A stretch of 64,000 nt of DNA. Origin: Pleurostoma richardsiae. Lineage: Eukaryota; Ascomycota; Sordariomycetes; Calosphaeriales; Pleurostomataceae. The position numbers and the translations under genes are program-made. Position 1 is the first letter of the stretch. Each line of letters begins with the position of its first letter. Under the pieces are notes generated by a model, which worked only from the letters and a program-made list of their open reading frames with translations, did not search any database and was not told where the DNA came from. The DNA is taken from NCBI GenBank assembly GCA_030052745.1, contig JANBVO010000005.1:992001-1056000 (forward strand), read 5' to 3'. Positions 10,665-63,200 of the stretch are shown piece after piece.

Positions 10665-12307
10665 CTATTGGCTTTGCACTCCTTCACGAATTATGTGCTC
10701 CATCTGAATCTGCCGCAACGAGACGGGGCGAATGACAGGCCTCGATAATTTCAAACGGTGTATGGCATCACCATGAGACTTGATAGAAGCACCAGCATCC
10801 AGCAAATCCTTGACAATAACATGGCCTTGGCCACGATGCCTGAGTGATACACAGTCCCACGACTGGATCACGGGAGGTCGCAGATTCAATTCCCATGTTC
10901 CTCTCCAAGTTATCACAGCAGGTCGCCCTCGCTCAGGTCGTTGGTACCTGAAGAGCATCGCTGATCCCTTTTCTCCATTCCATATTTCCACTGTTTTGAG
11001 ATTTGGCATTTTCATGGCCGCCGCCGCCGCTGCCCGGAGCATGTGATCCAACCCTACCGAGCTCTCCTTTGACGCGAGCAGTCGTGAAGTCAGCGCAAGC
11101 CAGGTCAAGTTGGGCCACTCCCAGGAAAGTTCTCGAGCATCAAAAAAATCGGTAGCATCCACTATGAACGACGCCGAGAGATGTTCGAGCGTGAGACTGG
11201 CTCTAGCAACCGCCTGGCTAACATGAGAGGATGGTATTCGCATAGGGTCGCAGCCCAAACCTCTGTAGCTGGCTGGGTACATTTGGTTGAAATTCTCGAA
11301 GAGTATGAGTCTCCGTAGTCGATCGGAAGTGAGCGATTCAAAAAGAAGCCGTAAATCTACAAAGAAGAAGAGTATTAGTAGGTTAACAGTAGCCATTGGT
11401 ATGAATGGAACACAGAAGTGGCCGAGAACAATGAACTCAGGCAGGGGCACTCGCATTGGTCCGTCCACCGTTGCTGAATATCAAACCATTCCCTCCAAGG
11501 CTCGTAATGAATTTCCTGGAGTCCAGGGAGACGGGTAAACATATGTGCCAACGCGGCCGGCTTCCATCGTCGGCGGCTCTGTTGACGGAGGAGGACGCCT
11601 GTTACTGCCGGGACTAATGGAAGTTGCAGCCACCACTGGCCTTCTTGTTCTTCGTCATTAAACGGTCCCTCGCCCATGATTTCGTCAAAGACTTTTTCGA
11701 TAGCAGCAAAAGTAGGAATAGAATATCGACTGCCATCAATCCATCCGTGGTGGTGATCGCTAGGCTTGACCAGCATCGACTGGTCTACGTGTTGACCCCG
11801 GCCACACACATCAGAGGCAACATCAGGCTCAAAGGTCAGATATTTGAACCAATGCTCTGAGTCGCTTGGGGAGTACACGCTGATATCCAGCAGCAATTTG
11901 CTGTCAGGTTCCCACGTGCTAAGGGTTGAGAAGAGGTCTAGGAATGCTGTGGTAATCAGGGTATTGTCTGCGTTGCTCAGGCCCTCCGAGTCTCGAGGAT
12001 CACATTCGGTGCAGTCATATTCTTGGAGTTCCAAGCAAATCCAAATGTAGCGCACAAGACTCCTATTCCGATAGACCATCGAACCAAAATTGGCGAGGCG
12101 TGATGGTGTCAGTTTGATCCGGGAGAAGTTGTGCCGCTCGATAATCGTCTGCCACTCTCGGGACACTATGGCGAATTTGGCCAAGCTATAACCGTCCTGC
12201 AATAAGACTTCCAAGATCATAAGACGAATCTCTGCGGGTAAGTAGTGCCAAGATATCATATTGGCTGTCATCAGCGACGTTGGTGCCATGACTGTGAACA
12301 ATGACAC
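10665..12307 (-). CDS. F-box-like DUF6546 family protein
   Basis: The product resembles the large Pezizomycotina family annotated DUF6546, with an F-box-like N-terminus; F-box proteins usually recruit substrates to SCF ubiquitin ligases, but no function is established here. Exon 1 runs from 12307 (or the in-frame Met at 12259, MISWHYLPAEIR, which fits the family better) to about 11455 or 11437. Exon 2 runs from 11356 to 10665. The F-box-like block is LPAEIRLMILEVLLQ...REWQTIIE; the middle holds the family landmarks FLDLFSTLSTWEPDSKLLL and SPSDSEHWFKYLTF. Exon 2 continues with LRLLFESLTSDRLRRLILFENF and ARASLTLEHLSASFIVDA. The intron has a TACTAAT branch site and tag acceptor but no good GT donor: either GC (gcgagt at 11454) or a weak gttcat at 11436 is needed. 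GC content is lower than in neighbouring housekeeping genes. Confidence 0.72.
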
Positions 12308-14111
12308 GGAAAGAAATCGATAGATAAACTGCGTGCGGTAGAGCCTGAGTGCCGGGAACGAAGCGAGGTGTCCTTTTTATATGATTTTGTGGCATTTCAA
12401 CGCTATGAATCGGCAGTACTGCTGATCTAGCTTCTCAAACGACCATAGGTAGATTCCTCATGATTTATTAACTTTGTGACCGAGTGGATGAAGGTTTACC
12501 GTCAGGTTGGGTTTCCCGCTGACTATTGGCAGGCTCACCTTTTTTCCTATCTCCGGTAGGGTACCTTAGGGGCCTGGACCTCGATACTCATACCGTACCG
12601 ATATCTTCCCTTGGTTTCCTTTCCTACAACAGCCAAAGAGGTCGAGGAATCTTTCGTGGGGGAAGCACTTGATGGTATATTTGCGAGTTCAAGTTGTCTA
12701 GCGTAGGTATCTAGCGGCAATCTGATGGGACTGGGAATGGTCCCTTATAGAGGAGCCATTATCTTATACTATAGAATGGTTCTTAGAGAATAGACGTTGC
12801 TTGAACAATAAGGATAGATGCACGCTACATGACAACGTAGGTAGATACGGTAGTTTACCTATTTATCCTTGCACTCCGTAACGGGTACCGTTATCTACCT
12901 AGGTAGTAAGTACTTTGTAGTCTCTGTTACTTTTGCATCCCGTTTTCTGGCCACACAAGCTTCCAGTTGTTGCGTATTCTGCTCTAAAGCCAAAGACTCA
13001 CAGGAAGAATACTGGTTGTGTTTGCTCTTTTGTGGAGCATTGGTCGGGCATGTGGGAGCGCGGCCTCTCACCCTGGCCGTGGCAGCCCCTTTGCCGGGAC
13101 ACCGTTACTTGAAAGACGGAGAGGATCGCCGACCTTCTCGGACTGCCCCTGCCTGTCTACCTGGCCGCCTCCCCAACCAATCCCAACTCAGCCCGCATCA
13201 TGACCAGGTTTCTTCTTGAGAAATGCTATCCGCACACTACGTTACCTTTTTGCTATTCGTACGTTAAGTACAGCGCCGGCTTACTGCTTATCACCCTGAC
13301 TACTTCTACCTCAGGCCAATATCAAATAACTATTTCAACCTAGAAAGCCTACACGAATTGCAGTCAGGTTCTGACAGTAGTAGGTCAAGAGCGGTGTAGG
13401 CTGGCAGAACACCGGGGGCCGCTCCGGACCTCTCGAGGAGTTCAGGGGTTAAGGGCCAGCTTGGCCGGGTAATGAAACTTGAAAAGGACTTAAATGTCCC
13501 TGGCGTGGGAGTTTGTGGGTATACATGTAAGCCCACAGGTTTTGCAAGACGCCTCTGACCTTACATCCCAACCAAGCGCCGTGATCAAGCGCGAGGCTAT
13601 AGGCCGAAATGCCGTGTAGCCATGTATCACGAGTTGCATCCGGAAGTCCTGGAAGGCCCGTGAAGAGTGACCATAGTTTACTGAGGTGCTCCTTCGGCTG
13701 GAAAGATCTCCCGCATGATGACAGATTGCAAATGCACTTTCACTCCTATCTCGGTGGTGACCACGCCAGCGATGAGTTTAACTCTTCTGTCTTGATAACC
13801 ACCAAAACATAAGGGACATGCAACACCACCGGAAGGCAATGCGATACAATACACGCCCTAGAAACTCTTTTACACGTATCCAGAAGACATTATCCAACCT
13901 AGGTTCAATACTCAATTCAATAACCTATTAGGCCCAATTATGCCTCCGAAAGGCACTCGAGAAAGACCTGCATCTGAACGACACCAATAGATGCAAGCGA
14001 GGGTACACCTTATATAGGCAAAAAAAATTCCCCGAGAGGAGTTTGCGAGGAGGGGATCGATGGTGCCAGGCGGAACAAGGTTATAGCTAACGATGGTGTT
14101 GTGAAAATCCT
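12308..14111. other. 1.8-kb AT-rich spacer in the accessory block
   Basis: The region upstream of the F-box-like gene contains TACCTAGGTA at 12896-12905, AACCTAGGTT at 13896-13905 and many gtaggta/taccta runs. Open frames such as 12869-13219 lack protein-like composition. No transposon or RNA gene is recognisable. Confidence 0.45.
12896..12905. promoter_or_regulatory. TACCTAGGTA palindrome
   Basis: A perfect 10-bp palindrome in AT-rich spacer. The core ACCTAGGT also occurs at about 13897, 50322, 51073 and 59866, always between genes. Its function is unknown. Confidence 0.45.
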
Positions 14112-17100
14112 CTATCGCCTCCCATCCTCTCGTGCCGCCTCCTCATCCGTATTACCGGTTACCTTCTTCAAGTAATCATCAAACTTGCTTGAAACCTTGA
14201 TCACACGTTTCAGATGAGAGAACGACATCTGAACCCGCTCGTATTTGGCCAGCTGTCTGCCCGTCGTGATGATATTGCGAATCTGCCGTCCATTCATTTT
14301 CAACTTCGCTAGTTCTTCGATGTGCCTCTCAATATCTCCGTAGTCGATGCTTGGCAACTGCTGGGTATTAGAAATCTCTGGAGTAAGGCGCTCACTATTG
14401 TTGATGTTGCCAGATTCTACGGATTTCTGAGCAGCCGAAGTTTCCAATGTCTTCAGCCTCGTAATGAAGTTTTTCCAGATGGTGCTCCGCTGGGATTTCG
14501 TGAGCGCTTCGTAATGTAGCGATAACTGAATGCGCGATTTGAATGCTTCATCGAAGGTACCAACCCGGTTGGAAGTCAGGATCAGGATACCTTCATAGTA
14601 CTCGAGCACACGTAGGAACACAGAAACTAGGGCGTTGCGTTCGAGATCCATCAGAGTGCGTTGTTCAAGGAAGACATCAGCCTCATCGAGTAGGACAACG
14701 CAGTCCCAGATCTTTCCCAGATATAAGACACTCTCGAGGTATTTTTCCACCTCCTGAGGTTTAGTGCCGATGTCTCCGCATGTCACACGATAGAGCGGCT
14801 TTCTGGCAATCTCGGCAACGCTCTCAGCTGTGAAGGTTTTGCCCGTGCCTGGGCCGCCGTGGAGAAGAATGATGAGCCCGTTGCCCTTGCCCCCGATCAC
14901 ATCCGTGCCTTGGTCTGCCTCGACCTTGCTACTGATTAGAGCACGGATAAGGACTTTGGTCTCGTTATCGACTACGAGGTGCTCGAAAGCATCCTCGTTC
15001 CAGTTGGCATTGTGGATCCTATCTACCTTGAGGTCCACTGGTAGCAATATTAGCAAAGATCGGTTTCATATATAAGAAGGGCCTTACTAACGCCATTTTT
15101 TCTGGCGTAGATTGTATCCAATGATAGTAGGAGGGAAGACCAGTCCTTCGGGGAATGGTGGAGGCTCATCAAGCTCCATCATCTCTGGACTTATCTCTTT
15201 GCGATCTCGCACATTAAGATGCGGGAAGGCCTTCTTCAGAGTTTGAGGGTCCGAATGTAGTTGCTTGTATGTAACGTAGTCTATCATGAATCGTTCACCA
15301 GCCTGATCTCTTGTTAGCAAACTCTGAGCAGTAAGGCAAGGATTACGCTCACCCCGTAAAGTTGATCTTCCTCGTCATCTTCGTACGAGACAAGATTCCT
15401 GACTCGACAATTCCATATTGCTTGACCTCGTCGCTCCAACAAGCCTTTGACACCCTCATCCGCATACCTAAGTGGGAATGCGTTAAGCGTGGTAAGACTG
15501 ACCTGTCCACATTCTGGGGTATACTTGAGTGCTATATCAATTTGGGAACCATGTCGGTAGAATCGGCCGTCATATTTGTAGGACCACACTTCGACCGTCC
15601 ACGTCTCCACTATTTCCTTCTTTCCCTCAGGCCGCTCACTGTCGCGGGTTACCTTTTTCTTAGCCCAGGAAGATGCAATATAGCCTTCATACGTTCTGCC
15701 TTGCTTAGAGACTAGCAGGTCCCCTGGCCGCACAAGGAATGGCATGACCGAGCTGGAGACATAACCCTGTGAAAATTGCTTTTCCACCTTTGAGTACAGC
15801 GCTCCATAGCTGCTCTCAATCCACTCTGTGAGCAGCTTCATCAAGACATTGCTTTCTGTTGGCAAGCTGTCCACGGTTCCGTTGTTGCGATAGTGGTACC
15901 AAAAGAGATAGGGCGACGGAATAGCTTGTAAATCTAACTTCGGGAAGCACTGACGAAAATCTGATTGAGCATTGCAAAAGGCTTCCATTGCGGTGATCAT
16001 GCTTTTTGATGATAGTCTGATCGTCTCGTCAGCCGGTTCAGGAGTTGGAAGTTCGGAGGCTTCGTCCCTGGCTTTCTTGACAGCGGCATTCTGGTGTTCA
16101 GGGTCGTAAAATTTGTAGACAACAAACGCGATGTCAGGCCTTCGGTCCAAATAACTCTTTGGGTCGGATATTGGGGAATGTCCTCTTAATGCAAGCCTGT
16201 CTTCGGCATCCCCACTCCAGGAAGGCACTGATAGATACGTTGATGAATCATGTTTGATGATGTGAAGAACCTGCCATGTCGTCGTCACCGGAGTCTGGGG
16301 CTTGGCTTTCAACCTTCTATTCTCTTCTTCCAGTTGAGCGACTCTTTGCGCCATTTCTTCCCATGAATCTTTAGCCATTTCAGATGCCAGAGTACCCGAC
16401 GTGAGGGTAGAGCGTCGCGAATTGTCGTCCATCTGCCGCTGACTGCTTGTTGTTACCGAGGGACTGAGGATATCGGATGTTGCATATGTTTCGAATGATT
16501 GGTGCGAGATTGGTGTGGGTGAAAAGAAGGAGGTCAATGAAGGGTTGAGTGGTGGTGATGGCGCAAATTCGTCAGACAACAGTCCTACGCGGTCTGGATA
16601 GGTAAAGTTTTCGTTGACAAGTGGTGTCTGTCGAAGTAATAAATCTCTTGAAGCTGTCAAGCCCGTTATGGGTTGCTTGAACCAACCTGAAGGCTGGATG
16701 ATACTTTTACCTTCAGGACTAGCCAGCCAAACTAGAGCATCAGGCGTTGTAAGCTCGTCTCCGAACGTCGACAAGCACTTGCCAGTGGCGGGGTCCCAGA
16801 TTTTGATCGTCTCGTATGACACTGACGCAAGCCGGGTGCCATCTGGCGACCAGGCTATGGCTCCAACCCAATCCGTGTGACCTTCAATCACCAGGGTGCA
16901 CTCGCCAGTTTCAGCGTCCCAGATCTTCACCGTTTCGTCGTCTGAGCCAGAGGCAATTCGCCTGCCATCTGGCGACCAGGCTATGGCTCCAACCCAATCT
17001 GTGTGACCTTCAGTCACCAGGGTACACTCGTAAGTCTCTGTGTCCCAGATCCGGATCGATCCGTCGCCTGATCCCGATGCAAGATGACTGTTGTCAGATG

Positions 17101-18022
17101 ACCAGGCTATAGCTTCGACCCCATCAAGGTGGCCGCTGAGTGTCGAAATACACTTGCCAGTTTTTGGATTCCAGATTTTTATACTCTTGTATGAAGCTGA
17201 TGCAAGTTGACTGCCATCAGCCGACCAGGCTATGGAAGTAACGTTATGACTGTGACCTTCAAGTGTTAAGACACATTTGCCAGTTTTTGGGTTCCAAATC
17301 TTGACATTCCTAGAGTGTGACCCCGCAAGCTTGCCATCGAGTGACCGACATATAGCAACAACACCGTTTTTGTGGCCACTGAGTTTTGAGACGCACAAGC
17401 CAGTCTTTAGATCCCACACTCTAATTGTCCCGTCGTCTGAACCTGATGCAAGCCGGCTGTCATTTGCTGACCAGGCCAGAGAGAAAACTTCAGCACTATG
17501 GCCTTGAAGCTCTGAGACACACTGACGAGTCTCGGAATCCCAGATCCTGATCGTGTGGTCGCTTCCTACGGAAGCAAGGCCCCTGGCGTCACCCCACAAT
17601 GATGTAGACCAAGCCGTCTGACTTCGTTGTAGAGTTTCTTTGATAGCTGAAAGCCTTTCCAGGTCATATGAGCCTGCTTGGGTTTGATCACGAGATATTG
17701 TGATGTGTCTGAGGAACTTCCAGGAATCGCTATTATTGTGATCTTCCTCCCAGGATGGTGCGCTTGAGTCTTCACTTTCCTTGTAGCTTTCCTCGCCGCT
17801 TTCTCCTGACTCGCTTTTATCTTCGTTGTCGTTTTCGTTGTCTTCCTCTTCTTCCTGTTCGTAGACTTCTTCTTTGTCTTCTTCTTCGTCGTCGTCCTTT
17901 TCGCTTTGGGCTTCTTCTCGACACGAGGCTGTGACAAAAGCGCGGGTGTGGACTGTTCGTTCGCTGCTATGTGCGCTTATGATGTCGTGTTGAATTATGT
18001 TTCGGTCTTCATGATCGTCCAT
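14112..18022 (-). CDS. WD40 beta-propeller / DUF7025 / AAA ATPase fusion protein
   Basis: One gene of three exons (18022-15353, 15302-15092, 15037-14112) encodes 1,268 residues. Residues 40-95 are a highly acidic, disordered stretch. Residues about 135-425 form seven WD40 repeats, a complete propeller, with blades such as GHTDWVGAIAWSPDGRRIAS. A Ser/Pro linker with a short coiled coil (AQLEEENRRLKAK) follows. Residues about 570-900 match the DUF7025 region that precedes AAA domains in a large fungal family (SPYLFWYHYRNN, RPGDLLVS). The AAA core has Walker A GGPGTGKT (about 1021-1028), Walker B VVLLDEAD and the sensor/Arg-finger region LTSNRVGTFDEAFKSRI, so ATP hydrolysis looks intact. All joins keep frame and sit on canonical GT-AG sites. 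The DUF7025-AAA half is a known family; the propeller in front is unusual in my knowledge and suggests a signal-sensing, NLR-like machine. That role is inference. Confidence 0.85.
16837..17030 (-). repeat. Near-identical WD40 blade repeat, 126-nt period
   Basis: The 68 nt at 16837-16904 recur at 16963-17030 with three mismatches by eye. The 126-nt offset equals one 42-residue WD40 blade, so two neighbouring blades share the core GHTDWVGAIAWSPDG. Other blades of the same propeller have diverged far more, pointing to recent duplication or gene conversion. Confidence 0.9.
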
Positions 18023-19143
18023 GAGTCAAAGAAAGTCTCGTTTTCATCGCTGGCTTGTTCTTCATCGTTCTCAAGATTGAGGGGAGAGATTTGCTTCCAG
18101 CCGCTGAAACTGATCAGGCACTGATAAGGCGAAGTCCCAGTTGTCTGATCCACGAAGCCCGGTTTCCCGGTCCCAATGATTGGATTCTCGGACAGGTATT
18201 GATGAAAGAGAAAACCCTCAAGATCTTACATTTTCCGTGATTATGAGAGTGGTGCTTTATGTTCGTAGAAATACCCGTGTTCAATGGATTGAATTTCAGG
18301 CAGCTGCTACCCGCCCAGGGAGTTGTGGGAACTCGACCCGGAGCTATTACGATCTCATTATTCGTCAGCAGTTCGGGACATTATCAGGCTATGCTGCATG
18401 ACAACTCATCAGGACGACGCCACCAAACTGCCAGGCCCAGCCAGTCAACCCGCTCGGTTGCCTGTAAGTCAGCCTGCAAGTCAGCCTGATTTCGTACACG
18501 ACCATACGTATCTCTTTTGCTGGTAACTCATTAGGGTTACGCCACCCAACTGTTAGGCCCCGCTGTCCTGTGTCTGCATCTGTGAATATTTGCTCTCCAG
18601 CGACTGCCTCCGACTTCCGCAGCCGAAATCACTCCTTGTCGAGAATAAATTATACACTACTCCCGAGTCTTCTTCTCCTCCTCCTTCTTCAACTTCTTCT
18701 GATTACCTCTTCCTAATGTCCAACTCCGCCTCTACCGGCTGTCTAGTTCAACTGCATGTATCATCTGGTGAGAGGTTTTTTGTGCGGTACAAAGTTATGG
18801 TGCTGTGTGCCAACCGCCAGTCAGCCTGCTAGTTCGCCTGCAAGGTTGCCTAATCTCGTGCATGTACATACATATCTATTTGGCTAGCAACGCCAACGTG
18901 GTTGTATCATCTATATGGTCTCGCTCCGGCAGAACGGTCAGTGAGCTGCACCTTCGCGTTAATGGGACATTCGCTCTGACCATCATGACCTCCCCGGTGC
19001 TCAGAACTCTTCGGGCGGAGGACAGGACTCCCGAAGCTCCAGCATTCGATACCATGACGAATATGGTCGATAGGTTGGTTTTTTTTTTCTTTTTTCTTTT
19101 TTTCACTCACATCCTGTAATTAGATAGTCTGGTCCTGATAGAA
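18023..19143. promoter_or_regulatory. Divergent spacer between the AAA fusion and the DUF7708 gene
   Basis: This 1.1-kb region holds the promoters of two divergent accessory genes. It contains the diverged direct repeats listed separately and a broken T-run at about 19079-19105 directly before the DUF7708 start. No coding region is supported. Confidence 0.5.
18403..18888. repeat. Diverged direct repeats upstream of the DUF7708 gene
   Basis: Segment 18403-18438 recurs at 18525-18560, sharing AACTCAT, ACGCCACC and AGGCCC. Segment 18442-18523 recurs in diverged form at 18818-18888, starting CAGTCA and ending near a TATCT...TTTG stretch. Many mismatches are C/T or G/A. These look like old duplicated non-coding units; no element family is recognisable. 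Confidence 0.6.
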
Positions 19144-20845
19144 ATGTCTAGTGATGCTACGAGCACTACGACCTCCATAGCGCATCAAGCCTTCCAGACA
19201 GCCGCCAAACGGTTTACTTCCAGCCTTGGTAGTGACGGAAAGACATTTGCTCCCCTGCAAAATTCTACGTCTATGGAGGACGTCAAAAAGCTCATTGAGA
19301 ATTCACAAAAGAAGTATGAGGACGAGAAAAAGTTTCTCACGGCGCGCAAATGGATGAGTCGGGCGACATCGACTATTCACCACTATAGTAGCGTTATCGA
19401 TGTCTTTGCACAGGTAGATCCCTTGCACGTCTCGCTGGTCTGGGGCTCGATGAAGTTGGTCGTATTGGTACGTCAAGGAGTTTTAGAGAACATCTCCACT
19501 CCGTCCAAAATCTCCGTTGCTGGAATATAGGATCTCTACTCATTTGGAACAGGCGGCCCAAAGCCATGAGAAGACAATTTCAGTCCTTTCGAAGGCTCTT
19601 TCGAAAACTGCACGTTCACTCCCCCGTGTCGAACTGGCCACGGTTCTGTACACTGCCAAAGAAATGATATCAGCAATCGAAGATCTCTACACCCACATCT
19701 TTGAGTTCTTTTCAAGAGCTCACAAATGGTACCAGGAGGGCTTGGCCCGTCATATCTGGCACAGCTTCACACAGCCGCCGTCTCTGCGGTACGAAGACAT
19801 CCTGGAAGATATAGACGAATGCTCCAGGCACATTGACAAGTTGGCCCAGTTAGGGAGTCATATCGAGATCAACAGGAAATTGACGGAACTCCAAACCACA
19901 CAAGATCACATTCTGGCGATTCACCGCCGCGCGACTGCAAACCACGACCAAAACCTCGCAGACCTTCTCACTAAAGTAACAATGCTTTCCAGCGTGCTAG
20001 TAAATACAGACCAACGCGTTACAGACCTACAATTTTCAGCCATAATGTCATTCCTTTCAAAACCTGGCCTTGGGGATGGGATGGAATCCCTTGTATACAA
20101 TCGGTCGCTCGTGAACCGACCAAACCGAACAAACCCTACTCGAGGGTTCACGAACCGCTTCTGGCATTCGCCGAAATTAGCACAATGGACTATGGCAAAA
20201 GATTCAAGAGTGGTCTTCATACAAGGAAATCCTCAGGCAGAATCTGTGATACGGGAATTCTCAGTCCTCGTGATTGATCGACTCCAAGAGAGCCGAGTTC
20301 CGATTCTATGGACATTGCCCAGCCCTGAAGGTGGTCCTGGAGCCAACAGGGTATCTCCGATTGATTTACTAAAACACCTCGTTCTACAAGCAATACGGCT
20401 TTGCAAGCAGATACCGAACGAGAGCAACATGGCCCGCCTATGCACTCAGTTCCATACAATATCGACAGAGAGAGAATGGATGCGGATATTGGGCTCAGTG
20501 TTGAAAATTCTCGGACCACAATGTTACGTTGCCATTGACTTGACAACGTTGGAAGGAGACCTGCAGTCTGTGGACAAAGGATTCTCATGGCTACACTCAT
20601 TCCAAGAAGTGTTTGCGGAGCTTGCTAGGGACAATCTTCGGGCAGTCCAGGTCAAGGTGCTTCTGCTCACTCATTCATCCAGGCTAGGACAAGAGATGGC
20701 CGATAGTATTCCACCAGAGCTGCTGATACCAGTGCGTGAGCATCCAATCCCTGGACGCATGCGCAAGAAGATGGAAGCGCGGTTTTCGAGCCGAAGTCGA
20801 GTGAGAGTTCCACATAGTCTGTGGAAGGGGAGGCCTACACGTTAG
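19144..20845 (+). CDS. DUF7708 STAND-like protein with a degenerate nucleotide-binding site
   Basis: Exons 19144-19467 and 19553-20845 (GTACGT donor, ggaacag acceptor, phase 0) encode 538 residues. Residues about 70-220 match the DUF7708 N-terminal domain of fungal STAND/NLR-like proteins: HHYSSVIDVFAQ...VSLVWGSMKLVVL, then LPRVELATVLY and HSFTQPPSLRYEDIL. After a helical linker, the region that normally holds the P-loop reads VVFIQGNPQAESVIREF (about residues 330-345) and lacks the GxxGxGK[ST] signature. The Walker B position reads YVAIDLTTLEGD. The later VKVLLLTHSSR resembles the sensor strand of NACHT-type ATPases, so fold traces remain while ATP binding is unlikely. No C-terminal repeat domain follows. 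The frame is intact, so this looks like a pseudo-NTPase rather than a pseudogene. It sits beside the WD40-AAA gene. Confidence 0.78.
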
Positions 20846-59597: not shown

Positions 59598-60261
59598 GGT
59601 GTCCGGTTCCGCTCATCAGAGGACTTTTCTGTACTGAGAGATTGTGTGAAGCTGGAGCAGTTGGCTCGAGGTTCGGAGAGGCCGACGCTGAAGGGTTCGA
59701 GATGTACCTTAGTTACTAGACGTCTACCCACCTATGCAGAGTGGCTGGTGTTGCGTGGCTGGTGCCAGATGGCCAACCACATCAATGCCGTATTATCACA
59801 TCCAGCCTCGTCTCCCTTTGTTCCTCTCACACGCCTAAGATACCTTTCAGATATAAGGTTGGCATACCTAGGTAGGTACCTAATTAACTACACTACACAA
59901 GTCATACCGTGAGATCTCAATGTCTACATAGATAAACACCGAAGTCCAACACTACGACGATCCATTGCCACATCCTGGGAGAATTGATAACGAGTAGCGT
60001 GGACTAATCAAGCATGGCTTGCTTGCCCAGAGACTCAGCCGCAGCGCAGCGCAGCACAGCTCAGCGCATCGCACCGGCCCGCACCCCGCCCGGCGCAGGC
60101 GGGCGCTTCGCTCCTCGAGGCTGCGAGCAAGGTGTCCTGGCCAAGGAGGACAAGATGCCCTCTCCCTCGTAGAGTTTTCCTGTAGCTTTTGCTATGAGCA
60201 TGTCTATGCTTTCGCAATCACCCTCGCCTTCTCCCGCGAGAAGCCACGGATCGCCATCGAC
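59598..60261. promoter_or_regulatory. Divergent spacer MED10 / NACHT-ankyrin gene
   Basis: A 664-bp region with both promoters. TACCTAGGTA lies at 59865-59874, followed by GGTACC. No gene is supported; an open frame from 60019 runs into the NACHT gene but its first part is not conserved. Confidence 0.5.
59865..59874. promoter_or_regulatory. TACCTAGGTA palindrome in the MED10/NACHT divergent promoter
   Basis: A perfect copy of the 10-bp palindrome. It shares the upstream string TTCCTCTCACA (59821) with the copy near 51072. Confidence 0.45.
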
Positions 60262-63200
60262 ATGTTTCTGAGACCAGGCGCCCACGGCGGCACAGCCAAC
60301 GGCTCCCTCACCCCCAGCGCTTCCCGGGAAGAGCTGTTTCCACATGCCCAGCATCTCGGGGTACGGGTCCTCCACACGCCGTCTAACCCGACGGTCGACA
60401 TTATTCTCATCCACGGCTTGACCGGCCATCCTTATAACACATTCGCGACTGGGGACGGTGTCTACTGGCCCACGCAGTTCCTGAGCCGTGACCTACCAAG
60501 CGCGCGCATACTGGCTTTTGGGTACGATGCCGACGTGGCCAAGTTCCTGGGGCCGGTCGGACAGAACAACATCCGGGAACACGCCGCGACGCTGCTCAGC
60601 GACGTAGCGGCCGTGCGGGAAGAGGACGGGTCGGTATGGCGTCTCCACACCATTCGAATAAGCTTGTGGGGAGCCTTCGCTAACGAGAAAGCTTATCTCA
60701 GGAGTCCCGCCCCATCATCCTCGTCGTCCACAGCCTCGGCGGCCTTGTAATAAAGAAGGCACTGTGCCTGTCGGAGCAGGCGATTGAAGACCATGAGAAA
60801 CAGCTCGACCGATGCACCGTCGGCATCGCCTTCCTGGGCACCCCTCATCGGGGCTCAGACCTGGCTCCGTTTGCCTCGGGGGTCGTGCGAGTGTTGAAAG
60901 CCAGTAGGAAGAGGGTGAATATAGATATTGTGAGGCTTCTGGAAAGGGACTCGGAGGCTTTGGCTGATATCGAGGCGTCCTTCGGCATATGGCTTCGGAG
61001 GAACGCCAGCCGTGTCAAGCTGACATGTTTCTTCGAAGAACAAGCCTTACTTGGCATCGGCATGGTATGCAGGACCGAGATTATCGTGCCGTCATATGCG
61101 GCGGAGGCTAACTCCTGGTGTTCTGGAATAGGTTGTGGACAAGCATTCTGCTCGGATCGCTGGCTATCCCCAGCTTCCCACTCCGACAAACCACATGGTG
61201 AGTGCTGTCTCGATCTGGTGAGGAGCTATTCACTGACCTGCGAAGGATATGGTTCGCTTCAAGAGCCCCGAAGACACCGGATACCGAAGGCTTCTGGGAG
61301 AACTAAGGAGATGGCTGCGGCAGGGTACTGTCGCGGTCACCAACGACGCGGGTGTCCCACCCAACCAGCAGCTGAACTACCAAGGTAGCAGTCCCCGACG
61401 ATCAGACACTGGTTTCTCCGGTAACAGTGAAAAGGATGTATGAAGTCTCTGGCTTTTCCCGAGATGAATGATCGCGGAATAGACATAAGCAAAGCTGCTG
61501 ACGGGACGTGCAAGTGGATTCTCACCCACCCGGTGTACGAACAGTGGCTGACCAATGGCCGTGGATTGCTTTGGATCAAGGGCAAGCCGGGCGCTGGGAA
61601 ATCTACCATCATGAAATTCCTGCTCGGCTCCCATGAGTCCGGACGTGATGACCGACACGCTGATGTTTTTCGGGTGTCCTTCTTCTTCCATGGGCGCGGC
61701 ACTGACCTGCAAAAGTCGCCTCTTGGCCTGCTCAGATCGCTCATCCACCAGATTGGGAAAGCTTATCCGGAGGTGATTGCGTTCCTAGTATCCAACTTTG
61801 AAGAGAAGGAGAAGTTCGAGGCTGCGTGGATGTGGAGGCTTCAGGAGCTGGAAGATGCCCTGGCGTCCAAGGTCCTACCTGCCTTGCTTCAGCGCACAGC
61901 CGTAAGGCTCCATATAGACGCGCTGGATGAGGCCGGAGAGCAGGATGCTAGGAAGGTTGTCCAGTTCTTTTCTCGCATCTCTGAAGGGGGGTCTGTCAGC
62001 CCCCATGGGCTCAGTATCTGCTTTGCCTGCCGTCATTTTCCCATAATTGCTCCAGATGTCTGCGACGAAATCACCGTCGAGAACGAAAACGACGCTGACA
62101 TCTCGGCCTATATCGACCAGGAGCTCACCCGCTACATCAATGATCTGGACGAAGTCACACTCCTCTCCGACGAGATCTACCAGAGGTCACAGGGCGTATT
62201 CCAGTGGGTGGTGTTGGTTACGCCCCAGGTCTGCTGGATGCACCAGGAAGGACAAACAGCTTCGCAGATACTGGAAGCCGTCCGACGCACGCCCCCAGAG
62301 CTGAGAACTCTGTATGCTTCGATATTTGACAACCTACTCAAGAAGAGGCCAGAACTATCCCTCAGACTGTTCGAATGGGTATGCTTCGGAATAACTGCGT
62401 TGTCTGTCACGCAGCTGCGATTCGCCTTGGCCCTTTCCCCGGAAATGCCCGGCCCTGCGCCCATCACAGAGGGTGACTTGAGGAACTCTCGAGAAGTCCC
62501 GCGTTCCGATGAAAAGATGAAGAAGCAGCTTCGGACCTTGTCAGGGGGGCTTGCCGAATTCACTGAATCTGGTGTGCAACTTATACATCAGTCAGTTCAA
62601 GATTTCCTGCTACAGAAAGGTTTCGCCCTTCTGGACCCAGCCATGGGGGATGATCCGGACAAAATAACCGGAACAGCACACCACAAGATTGCGAGATCTT
62701 GCCTAAGGTATCTCCTAGCTTTCCAATCTCGCTACACTTTGTCAAGCTACCAGGAAGGTATGCGGCAGATTGTGGCCCTCGATGCTGAATATCCTCTGTT
62801 ATTGTATGCTGTACGTCAGTGGCTGCCACATGCCACAACTGCAGATGCGAAGGGTGTAGCACAGGCCGACATCCCTGTGTTCCTCGGTGGCAATCCTGGC
62901 CCGTTCATCAAAGCTTGGGAGACTGTAGCTGTTGCCGACGCACTGCATCATGCCGATCGAGGTACCAAGGCGGAGCTTCAAACATCTCTTTTGCATGAAG
63001 CGGCGAAGTACGGCATCACGACTCTTATAACGCCCGCTATTAGGGCCACCCCTGAGTCACTCAATCGAAAAGACTTCAACTATAGGCCACCATTATATCA
63101 CGCCATAGAGGAAGGCCATATAGGTGTTGCAAAACGACTCCTCCTCGAGCCAGAGCTTGTGTTGAACAAGACGTTTGAAGGATCTCGTGGCCTCCCGCCG

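Follow-up and report, generated by a model that had tools for sequence, protein, structure and literature searches.

What does a seven-blade WD40 propeller do on the same chain as a classical AAA ATPase? We analyzed a gene of Pleurostoma richardsiae in which the two are predicted to be joined, located on the minus strand at 18022-14112 of a 64,000-nt stretch of contig JANBVO010000005.1 (hereafter the window; positions are numbered within it). The three-exon model gives a product of 1268 amino acids (aa) consisting, in order, of an acidic leader, a seven-blade WD40 propeller, a short coil, DUF7025, and a classical AAA domain with its lid. A first-pass annotation had proposed that the protein is a sensor resembling NOD-like receptors (NLRs), by analogy with the fungal HNWD proteins. 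We favor a different reading, with a probability of about 0.4: a DUF7025-AAA protein took a propeller into its leader and may be the ATPase-competent half of a divergent gene pair, the other half of which is a DUF7708 protein resembling the STAND class (signal transduction ATPases with numerous domains) and lacking a P-loop. Such a pair would start a response to non-self or stress. This reading draws on the closeness of DUF7025 loci to NACHT or DUF7708 loci in this genome, mostly head to head, and on the missing Walker A lysine in all five DUF7708 neighbors.

Domain architecture of the gene product

The features of the gene are as follows.

15353..18022, minus strand: exon 1, 890 codons (leader, propeller, linker, coil, and most of the DUF7025 region)
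17723..18022, minus strand: acidic low-complexity leader, residues 1-100, from the sequence
17639..17722, minus strand: leader motif HITISRDQT and the following stretch, residues 101-128; the motif is also present in unfused relatives
16757..17590, minus strand: seven-blade WD40 propeller, about residues 145-422 (Pfam, WD motifs, predicted model)
16812..17063, minus strand: duplicated blade unit in tandem 126-nt copies, 82-83% identical in DNA
16283..16387, minus strand: short coil with LEEENRRL, residues 546-580
15461..15784, minus strand: DUF7025 (PF22942), 43 bits against a cut-off of 27
15303..15352, minus strand: intron 1, 50 nt, GTGAGC..CAG; family sequence is kept over the join
15092..15302, minus strand: exon 2, end of the DUF7025 region (GERFMIDY..KKW)
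15038..15091, minus strand: intron 2, 54 nt, GTTAGT..CAG
14112..15037, minus strand: exon 3 (AAA core, lid, and C-terminal tail, stop included)
14517..14870, minus strand: AAA core PF00004, 63.3 bits against a cut-off of 21
14835..14858, minus strand: Walker A GGPGTGKT, from the sequence
14670..14699, minus strand: Walker B VVLLDEADVF, from the sequence
14154..14504, minus strand: AAA_lid_13 PF23232, 50 bits against a cut-off of 27

The gene model was predicted from the sequence by enumerating splice combinations, 12 of which kept the frame. We chose the present combination because the family sequence continues over both joins, as seen in the homologous proteins P0001 (LYGAGERFMID and KKWLDL) and P0002 (LYGNGERFMID and QKWVDL). 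Separate WD40 and AAA genes are very unlikely, since the single 890-codon exon holds the leader, the propeller, and DUF7025. The coordinates and the three-exon product given in the first-pass annotation were borne out, the predicted exons lying on the minus strand (18022-15353, 15302-15092, and 15037-14112), as were its acidic leader, complete seven-repeat propeller, coil, DUF7025, and AAA domain with Walker A and B, which agreed with the sequence, Pfam, the WD motifs, and the predicted structure.

The WD40 part scored 210 bits with the Pfam repeat model (WD40, PF00400) and 254 bits with the WDR5 propeller model (PF25175), and contained seven WD motifs. In a predicted model of 361 residues, 170 residues had a predicted local distance difference test (pLDDT) value of at least 90. 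Superposition on the solved seven-blade structure 7bie gave a template modeling (TM) score of 0.94, normalized to target length, with a root-mean-square deviation of 1.3 over 289 columns. The model thus corresponds to a propeller of seven closed blades. Blades 6 and 7 were 80% identical in protein and 82-83% in DNA; pairwise identity within blades 2-7 was otherwise 38-61% (14 of 15 pairs).

DUF7025, the AAA domain with Walker A and B, the fungal lid, and the leader motif together place the predicted product in the DUF7025-AAA family. The leader motif was scored as a TISRDxT-like string (residues 108-114 here), a criterion set in this analysis and not one of Pfam's. Family members are numerous in Pezizomycotina: 2013 of 7992 scored candidates matched with E <=0.001, DUF7025 itself having been checked in part of them. 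When Msp1 was aligned with P0001, the aromatic pore-loop KWYGE of Msp1 fell beside GTKPQ. A GTxP stretch was matched in 118 of 122 proteins of the homologue set, and none of its 25 commonest forms, representing 102 proteins, contained an aromatic residue. Since forms such as GTKP or GTEP replace the aromatic pore-loop residues of Msp1, the AAA ring probably threads no substrate in the manner of Msp1 or Vps4; a role as a conformational switch or in disassembly is expected instead. In a 749-residue predicted model, structural matches were found mostly over the AAA part (residues 452-614).

P0001 also matched the antiphage ATPase IetA (NCBIfam, 1.4e-8; PADLOC, 3.5e-10). A link to IetA was rejected: the same NCBIfam model fits other AAA loci of this genome far better (to 1e-36, compared with 3.3e-13 for the best DUF7025 locus) and also matches in all 14 control genomes, indicating that it is unspecific.

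Insertion of the propeller into an older protein

The homologue set of 122 proteins comprised 121 listed matches and the product of this gene. Of the 88 proteins that matched the Walker A pattern, 56 had it preceded by 600 residues or more. The TISRDxT-like motif was found in 46 of the 56 long proteins, our own included. Both the motif and the coil, for which the family consensus is LExENxxL, could be located in 34 proteins; in two of these rows the spacing was wrong (negative), the coil pattern having matched elsewhere. The distance from motif to coil was 456 residues in this gene, 465 in P0002, and 471 in P0271, compared with 107-209 residues in 30 unfused proteins. Unfused relatives carry the motif, and the spacing is longer only in fused proteins, so the leader and its motif are older than the propeller. 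These results indicate that the propeller is an insertion between the leader motif and the coil, not an N-terminal addition.

P0003 of Podospora didyma and P0006 of Fusarium illustrate the unfused DUF7025-AAA proteins of Pezizomycotina. They share the leader motif, coil, DUF7025, AAA domain, and lid with this protein and are 54-56% identical to it over the shared part, but they lack the propeller and have motif-to-coil distances of 168 and 132 residues, respectively. The whole five-part architecture recurs in P0002, an AAA family ATPase of Paramyrothecium foliicola (1307 aa), with the same insertion point and seven WD motifs. P0271, a metagenome protein of 860 aa, likewise has the leader motif, the seven-unit propeller at the same insertion point, the coil, and DUF7025; the record breaks off at the expected start of intron 1, before the AAA domain. 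P0001 is 81% identical to this gene, and its record covers only the part downstream of the propeller position. It comes from a contig of 3982 bases, and the best 120 matches of a third protein search included no piece from a contig of equal length.

In a whole-length search, which favors fusions, P0002 was the only other three-domain protein identified among the best 120 of 5759 matches, and additional fusions may be present further down the ranking. Furthermore, among 156 WD40-type rows checked (P0121-P0277 without P0157), only P0271 carried the leader motif or DUF7025-type motifs. The first-pass annotation had named an old, invariant housekeeping fusion as the outcome that would speak against its proposal; among the matches listed, the fusion occurred, besides this gene, only in P. 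foliicola and the metagenome protein.

When a tree was built for the coil-to-DUF7025 part (32 rows), the three fused proteins and P0001 fell into one group (89/83), apart from 28 unfused rows, and 92% of 200 bootstrap trees gave the fusion a single origin. In a tree that included the AAA part (33 rows, without P0271 and with two candidates left out because the Walker A string was missing), this gene, P0001, and P0002 formed a group (98/96) adjoining 17 unfused rows. This grouping of the fused proteins is explained most simply, and probably correctly, by a single insertion in a lineage that includes Paramyrothecium.

Between this gene and P0002, identity was 73% in the AAA domain, 45% in the DUF7025 region, 34% in the propeller, 29% in the linker, and 25% in the leader. 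The corresponding values for DUF7025 region, propeller, and linker were 50%, 43%, and 17% between this gene and P0271, and 44%, 35%, and 30% between P0002 and P0271. All three proteins have seven WD units, and the blades of P0002 and P0271 matched in register, with a score of 66.4 compared with 53.6 at the next shift. The simplest reading is a common propeller that has diverged somewhat faster than DUF7025.

Some observations on unfused members are recorded here. P0005 and P0029 of Fusarium are DUF7025-AAA records with a short-chain dehydrogenase domain, which are either real fusions or merged gene models. The motif ALQDYQMQLMLLEQQNKKRL, present in some unfused linkers, has a single occurrence in this genome, which falls in a proline-rich open reading frame (ORF). 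L052 (C48:644248-647331), a proline-rich ORF, repeats several times a motif like ALPDYQLQLMLLEQQNRRRLMQARQEQE, which is also found in the linker of some unfused DUF7025-AAA proteins; the pattern was matched in 9 of 121 proteins.

Pairing with NACHT and DUF7708 loci, and comparison with NLRs

The neighbors of DUF7025 loci were searched with Pfam in six frames of this one genome, introns not being modeled. After exon matches were merged, there were 22 DUF7025, 9 DUF7708, and 78 NPHP3_N-type NACHT loci. A NACHT or DUF7708 locus lay within 5 kb of 9 of the 22 DUF7025 loci, compared with 0.52 expected under uniform placement. As a control, only 3 of 96 HET-domain loci had such a neighbor (Fisher, 8.7e-6). 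This control omitted four HET rows, of which three represent HET domains that lie within or next to NACHT genes; with the dropped rows restored, the count was 6 of 100 (Fisher, 1.0e-4). The count for subtilase loci was 1 of 19 (Fisher, 0.009). Seven of the nine pairs were head to head, one was convergent, and one was tandem. Conversely, five of the nine DUF7708 genes had a DUF7025 locus within 5 kb. The pair in the window is arranged as follows.

18023..19143, no strand: 1.1-kb upstream region shared by the head-to-head genes
19144..20845, plus strand: divergent DUF7708 neighbor with a DUF7708 N-terminus and a STAND-like segment without the Walker A lysine

The neighbor has one intron, placed by eye near 19469-19531. 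At the position of the P-loop, GK[ST] was missing in all five DUF7708 neighbors of DUF7025 loci and present in all seven NACHT-WD40 loci checked (those on C9 and C65 were left out). Among three other neighbor stretches scanned, for one of which (L084) only the N-terminal part was covered, two gave marginal NPHP3_N scores of 25.3 (cut-off, 24.8) and 20.6 (below it). The closeness to NACHT and DUF7708 loci, which the first-pass annotation had not noted, lends independent but indirect support to a recognition role.

A contig scan for bacterial homologues yielded three loci. In L073 (NYXK01000081.1), a DUF7025-AAA gene and a SesA-NACHT gene whose P-loop is intact stand head to head; in L074 (NYXK01000092.1), a DUF7025-AAA gene and a P-loop-less ORF lie in tandem. 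Both are filed under the Deltaproteobacteria metagenome-assembled genome CPC1, and their content looks fungal (fungal rhodopsin, SesA-NACHT, DUF7025, broken frames). L075 looks, by its frame, like an ordinary bacterial AAA gene. None of the three was accepted as a bacterial member of the family. In a separate observation, a subtilase locus lay within 10 kb of 1 of the 22 DUF7025 loci (C84:67329-74286, at 2.3 kb), and a NACHT locus was found 3.2 kb away on its other side.

Paired NLR genes in which one member is ATPase-dead occur in plants. The present arrangement is similar in that the genes are head to head and one partner has a dead P-loop. However, the putatively active member of the present pair belongs to the classical AAA type and is not a STAND NTPase.

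We next consider the comparison with fungal NLRs. In the HNWD/NWD proteins (HET-E, HET-D), as here, the WD40 propeller is the presumed recognition part. The HNWD propeller is C-terminal to a NACHT domain, whereas here it is N-terminal to an AAA domain, the order that the first-pass annotation had described. In this protein, PF00004 was the best match and NPHP3_N reached only 15.3 bits, below its cut-off of 24.8. HNWD repeats are described in PMC12222747 as >80% to 100% identical, with reactive alleles modeled with two propellers. In this gene, mutual identity of >80% was not reached among blades 2-7. Because the ATPase is AAA and not NACHT or NB-ARC, and because repeat identity of the HNWD type is missing, the predicted product is not an NLR in the sense of a STAND receptor. 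Read as a statement about family membership, the HNWD analogy is thus weak. Dyrka 2014 (PMC4986451) defines highly conserved repeats by >85% identity across at least 100 aa and reports high internal conservation in 21.6% of NLR WD repeats. With such a proportion, the missing repeat identity does not by itself exclude an NLR-like role.

Nine loci of this genome combine, by position, NACHT (NPHP3_N) with downstream WD40 repeats on the same strand. Eight entered the propeller comparison, as L061 (C65) gave no usable WD40 ORF. When the propeller was compared with this genome, six of these NACHT-WD40 loci took the top six places (187-214 bits, 35-46% identity); in a separate ranking, three non-NLR loci stood ahead of the NLR loci C107 and C89. 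As a control, 11 of 12 other WD40 genes also matched an NLR propeller best (86-149 bits), and the twelfth matched this gene. Best-match rank was therefore set aside as evidence for an NLR origin, being uninformative because NLR propellers lie close to the consensus. The strength of the matches (187-214 against 86-149 bits) is weakly suggestive of an NLR-type propeller.

Three NLR-type loci are described here for the record. In L053 (C68:131500-138500), NACHT is followed by 17 WD40 matches and then by HET at 137377-137823, which shares a 1646-aa frame with the repeats; HET is thus at the far end, compared with the start in HNWD. L059 (C89:61500-66500) has HET, NACHT, and WD40 in the usual HNWD order, as judged by position and strand. 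In the window itself, a NACHT/NPHP3_N locus lies in a 1100-aa open frame at 61503-62033 on the plus strand (C82:1053503-1054033). The ORFs upstream of it (59998-61388) look hydrolase-like by eye, with Pfam Abhydrolase_6 below threshold, and the locus is perhaps an NLR with an esterase-type N-terminus. Elsewhere in the window, two overlapping frames at 10665-12376 on the minus strand, one F-box-like below threshold and one matching DUF6546 (228 bits), are perhaps one gene.

Proposed mechanism, rival explanations, and significance

In the mechanism that we propose, the propeller would act as an integrated binding module, its ligand being a protein or a self protein in modified form. The coil and DUF7025 would relay binding to the AAA ring, and the ATP cycle of the ring would remodel or release the P-loop-less partner or a target, which would set off a non-self or stress response. 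We infer that the AAA domain has ATPase activity, that the propeller binds protein, that the neighbors act together, and that the response concerns non-self or stress.

Several results weigh against this pair reading or against a single shared propeller. At the sensitivity of this search, 13 of the 22 DUF7025 loci lacked a partner inside 5 kb; for one of the 13, a divergent NACHT locus lies at 9.0 kb. The partner in the window matched DUF7708 only, with no NPHP3_N match in Pfam, and its relation to NACHT is transitive and weak (DUF7708 plus a match to a C100 protein at 26.2 bits). Part of the pairing could reflect a tendency of accessory genes to cluster in variable regions, which the HET control covers partly. 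As for the propeller, the blades of this gene were in register with those of P0002 by a small margin (57.3 against 56.6 and 57.2 against 54.2 with two gap settings), and likewise with those of P0271 (86.1 against 84.4). When the P0002 propeller was compared stretch by stretch with this genome, the NLR at C107 scored 92.1 bits, more than this gene (89.6 bits). The propeller of this gene may have been replaced after the insertion.

The strongest competitor, which we regard as a real possibility, is that the propeller serves as a substrate adaptor for an AAA remodeler of housekeeping type, to which it is fused in cis, with no part in immunity. Katanin p80 serves p60 in this way, and Doa1/PLAA serves Cdc48; in those systems a WD40 part serves an AAA enzyme on a separate chain, whereas here both are on one chain. 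Against this reading stand the enrichment of NLR-type genes beside the DUF7025 family, a fusion restricted, among the matches listed, to one named species and one metagenome protein besides this gene, and an aromatic pore-loop place that is not conserved. The earlier proposal of a one-protein NLR-like receptor, in which the propeller senses and the AAA domain switches and oligomerizes with no partner, draws on the seven-blade propeller of fungal-NLR type and on its top six NLR matches exceeding those of the 12 other WD40 genes. It seems improbable given a nucleotide-binding domain that is AAA with lid PF23232 and not STAND, repeats not highly conserved internally, a STAND-like gene next door, and a leader in which Pfam found no effector domain (no HET, Goodbye, SesA, or HeLo match in 17503-18022 at E 0.1). 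As a further alternative, the insertion could be neutral or decaying, the propeller being tolerated and drifting without having gained a function. This would fit the lower identity to P0002 of the propeller (34%) than of the AAA domain (73%). We consider it very improbable: seven WD units persist in three proteins whose DUF7025 regions are 50-56% different, and propeller identities between this gene and its fused relatives (43% and 34%) are not far below those in the DUF7025 region (50% and 44%), with the linker lower (17% and 29%). The confident propeller model and the open frame throughout exon 1 also speak against drift. P0271, as a third fused protein with seven blades, makes a neutral insertion less likely and an adaptor slightly more likely.

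Beyond this gene, the pairs might represent a fungal two-gene recognition system not yet described, in which DUF7025-AAA genes stand head to head with P-loop-less DUF7708/STAND genes, the AAA protein supplies the lost ATP cycle, and some members have gained an inserted sensor. We hold this wider proposal tentatively and think it somewhat unlikely. Among openly licensed papers, we found none naming DUF7025 and none on an AAA-WD40 fusion in filamentous fungi, TOB3, AAA_lid_13, or PF22942; the DUF7025-AAA family is known in databases, and its WD40-bearing form is new.

The pairing gives the DUF7025-AAA family a functional clue and a testable partner, and should it recur in other genomes, the pair would count as a fungal module of a new kind. 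The insertion amounts to an experiment of nature: a recognition module was placed at a known position of an old ATPase and kept its seven blades. If the likeness to paired immune receptors is true, an ATPase-dead STAND protein would be served by a classical AAA enzyme.

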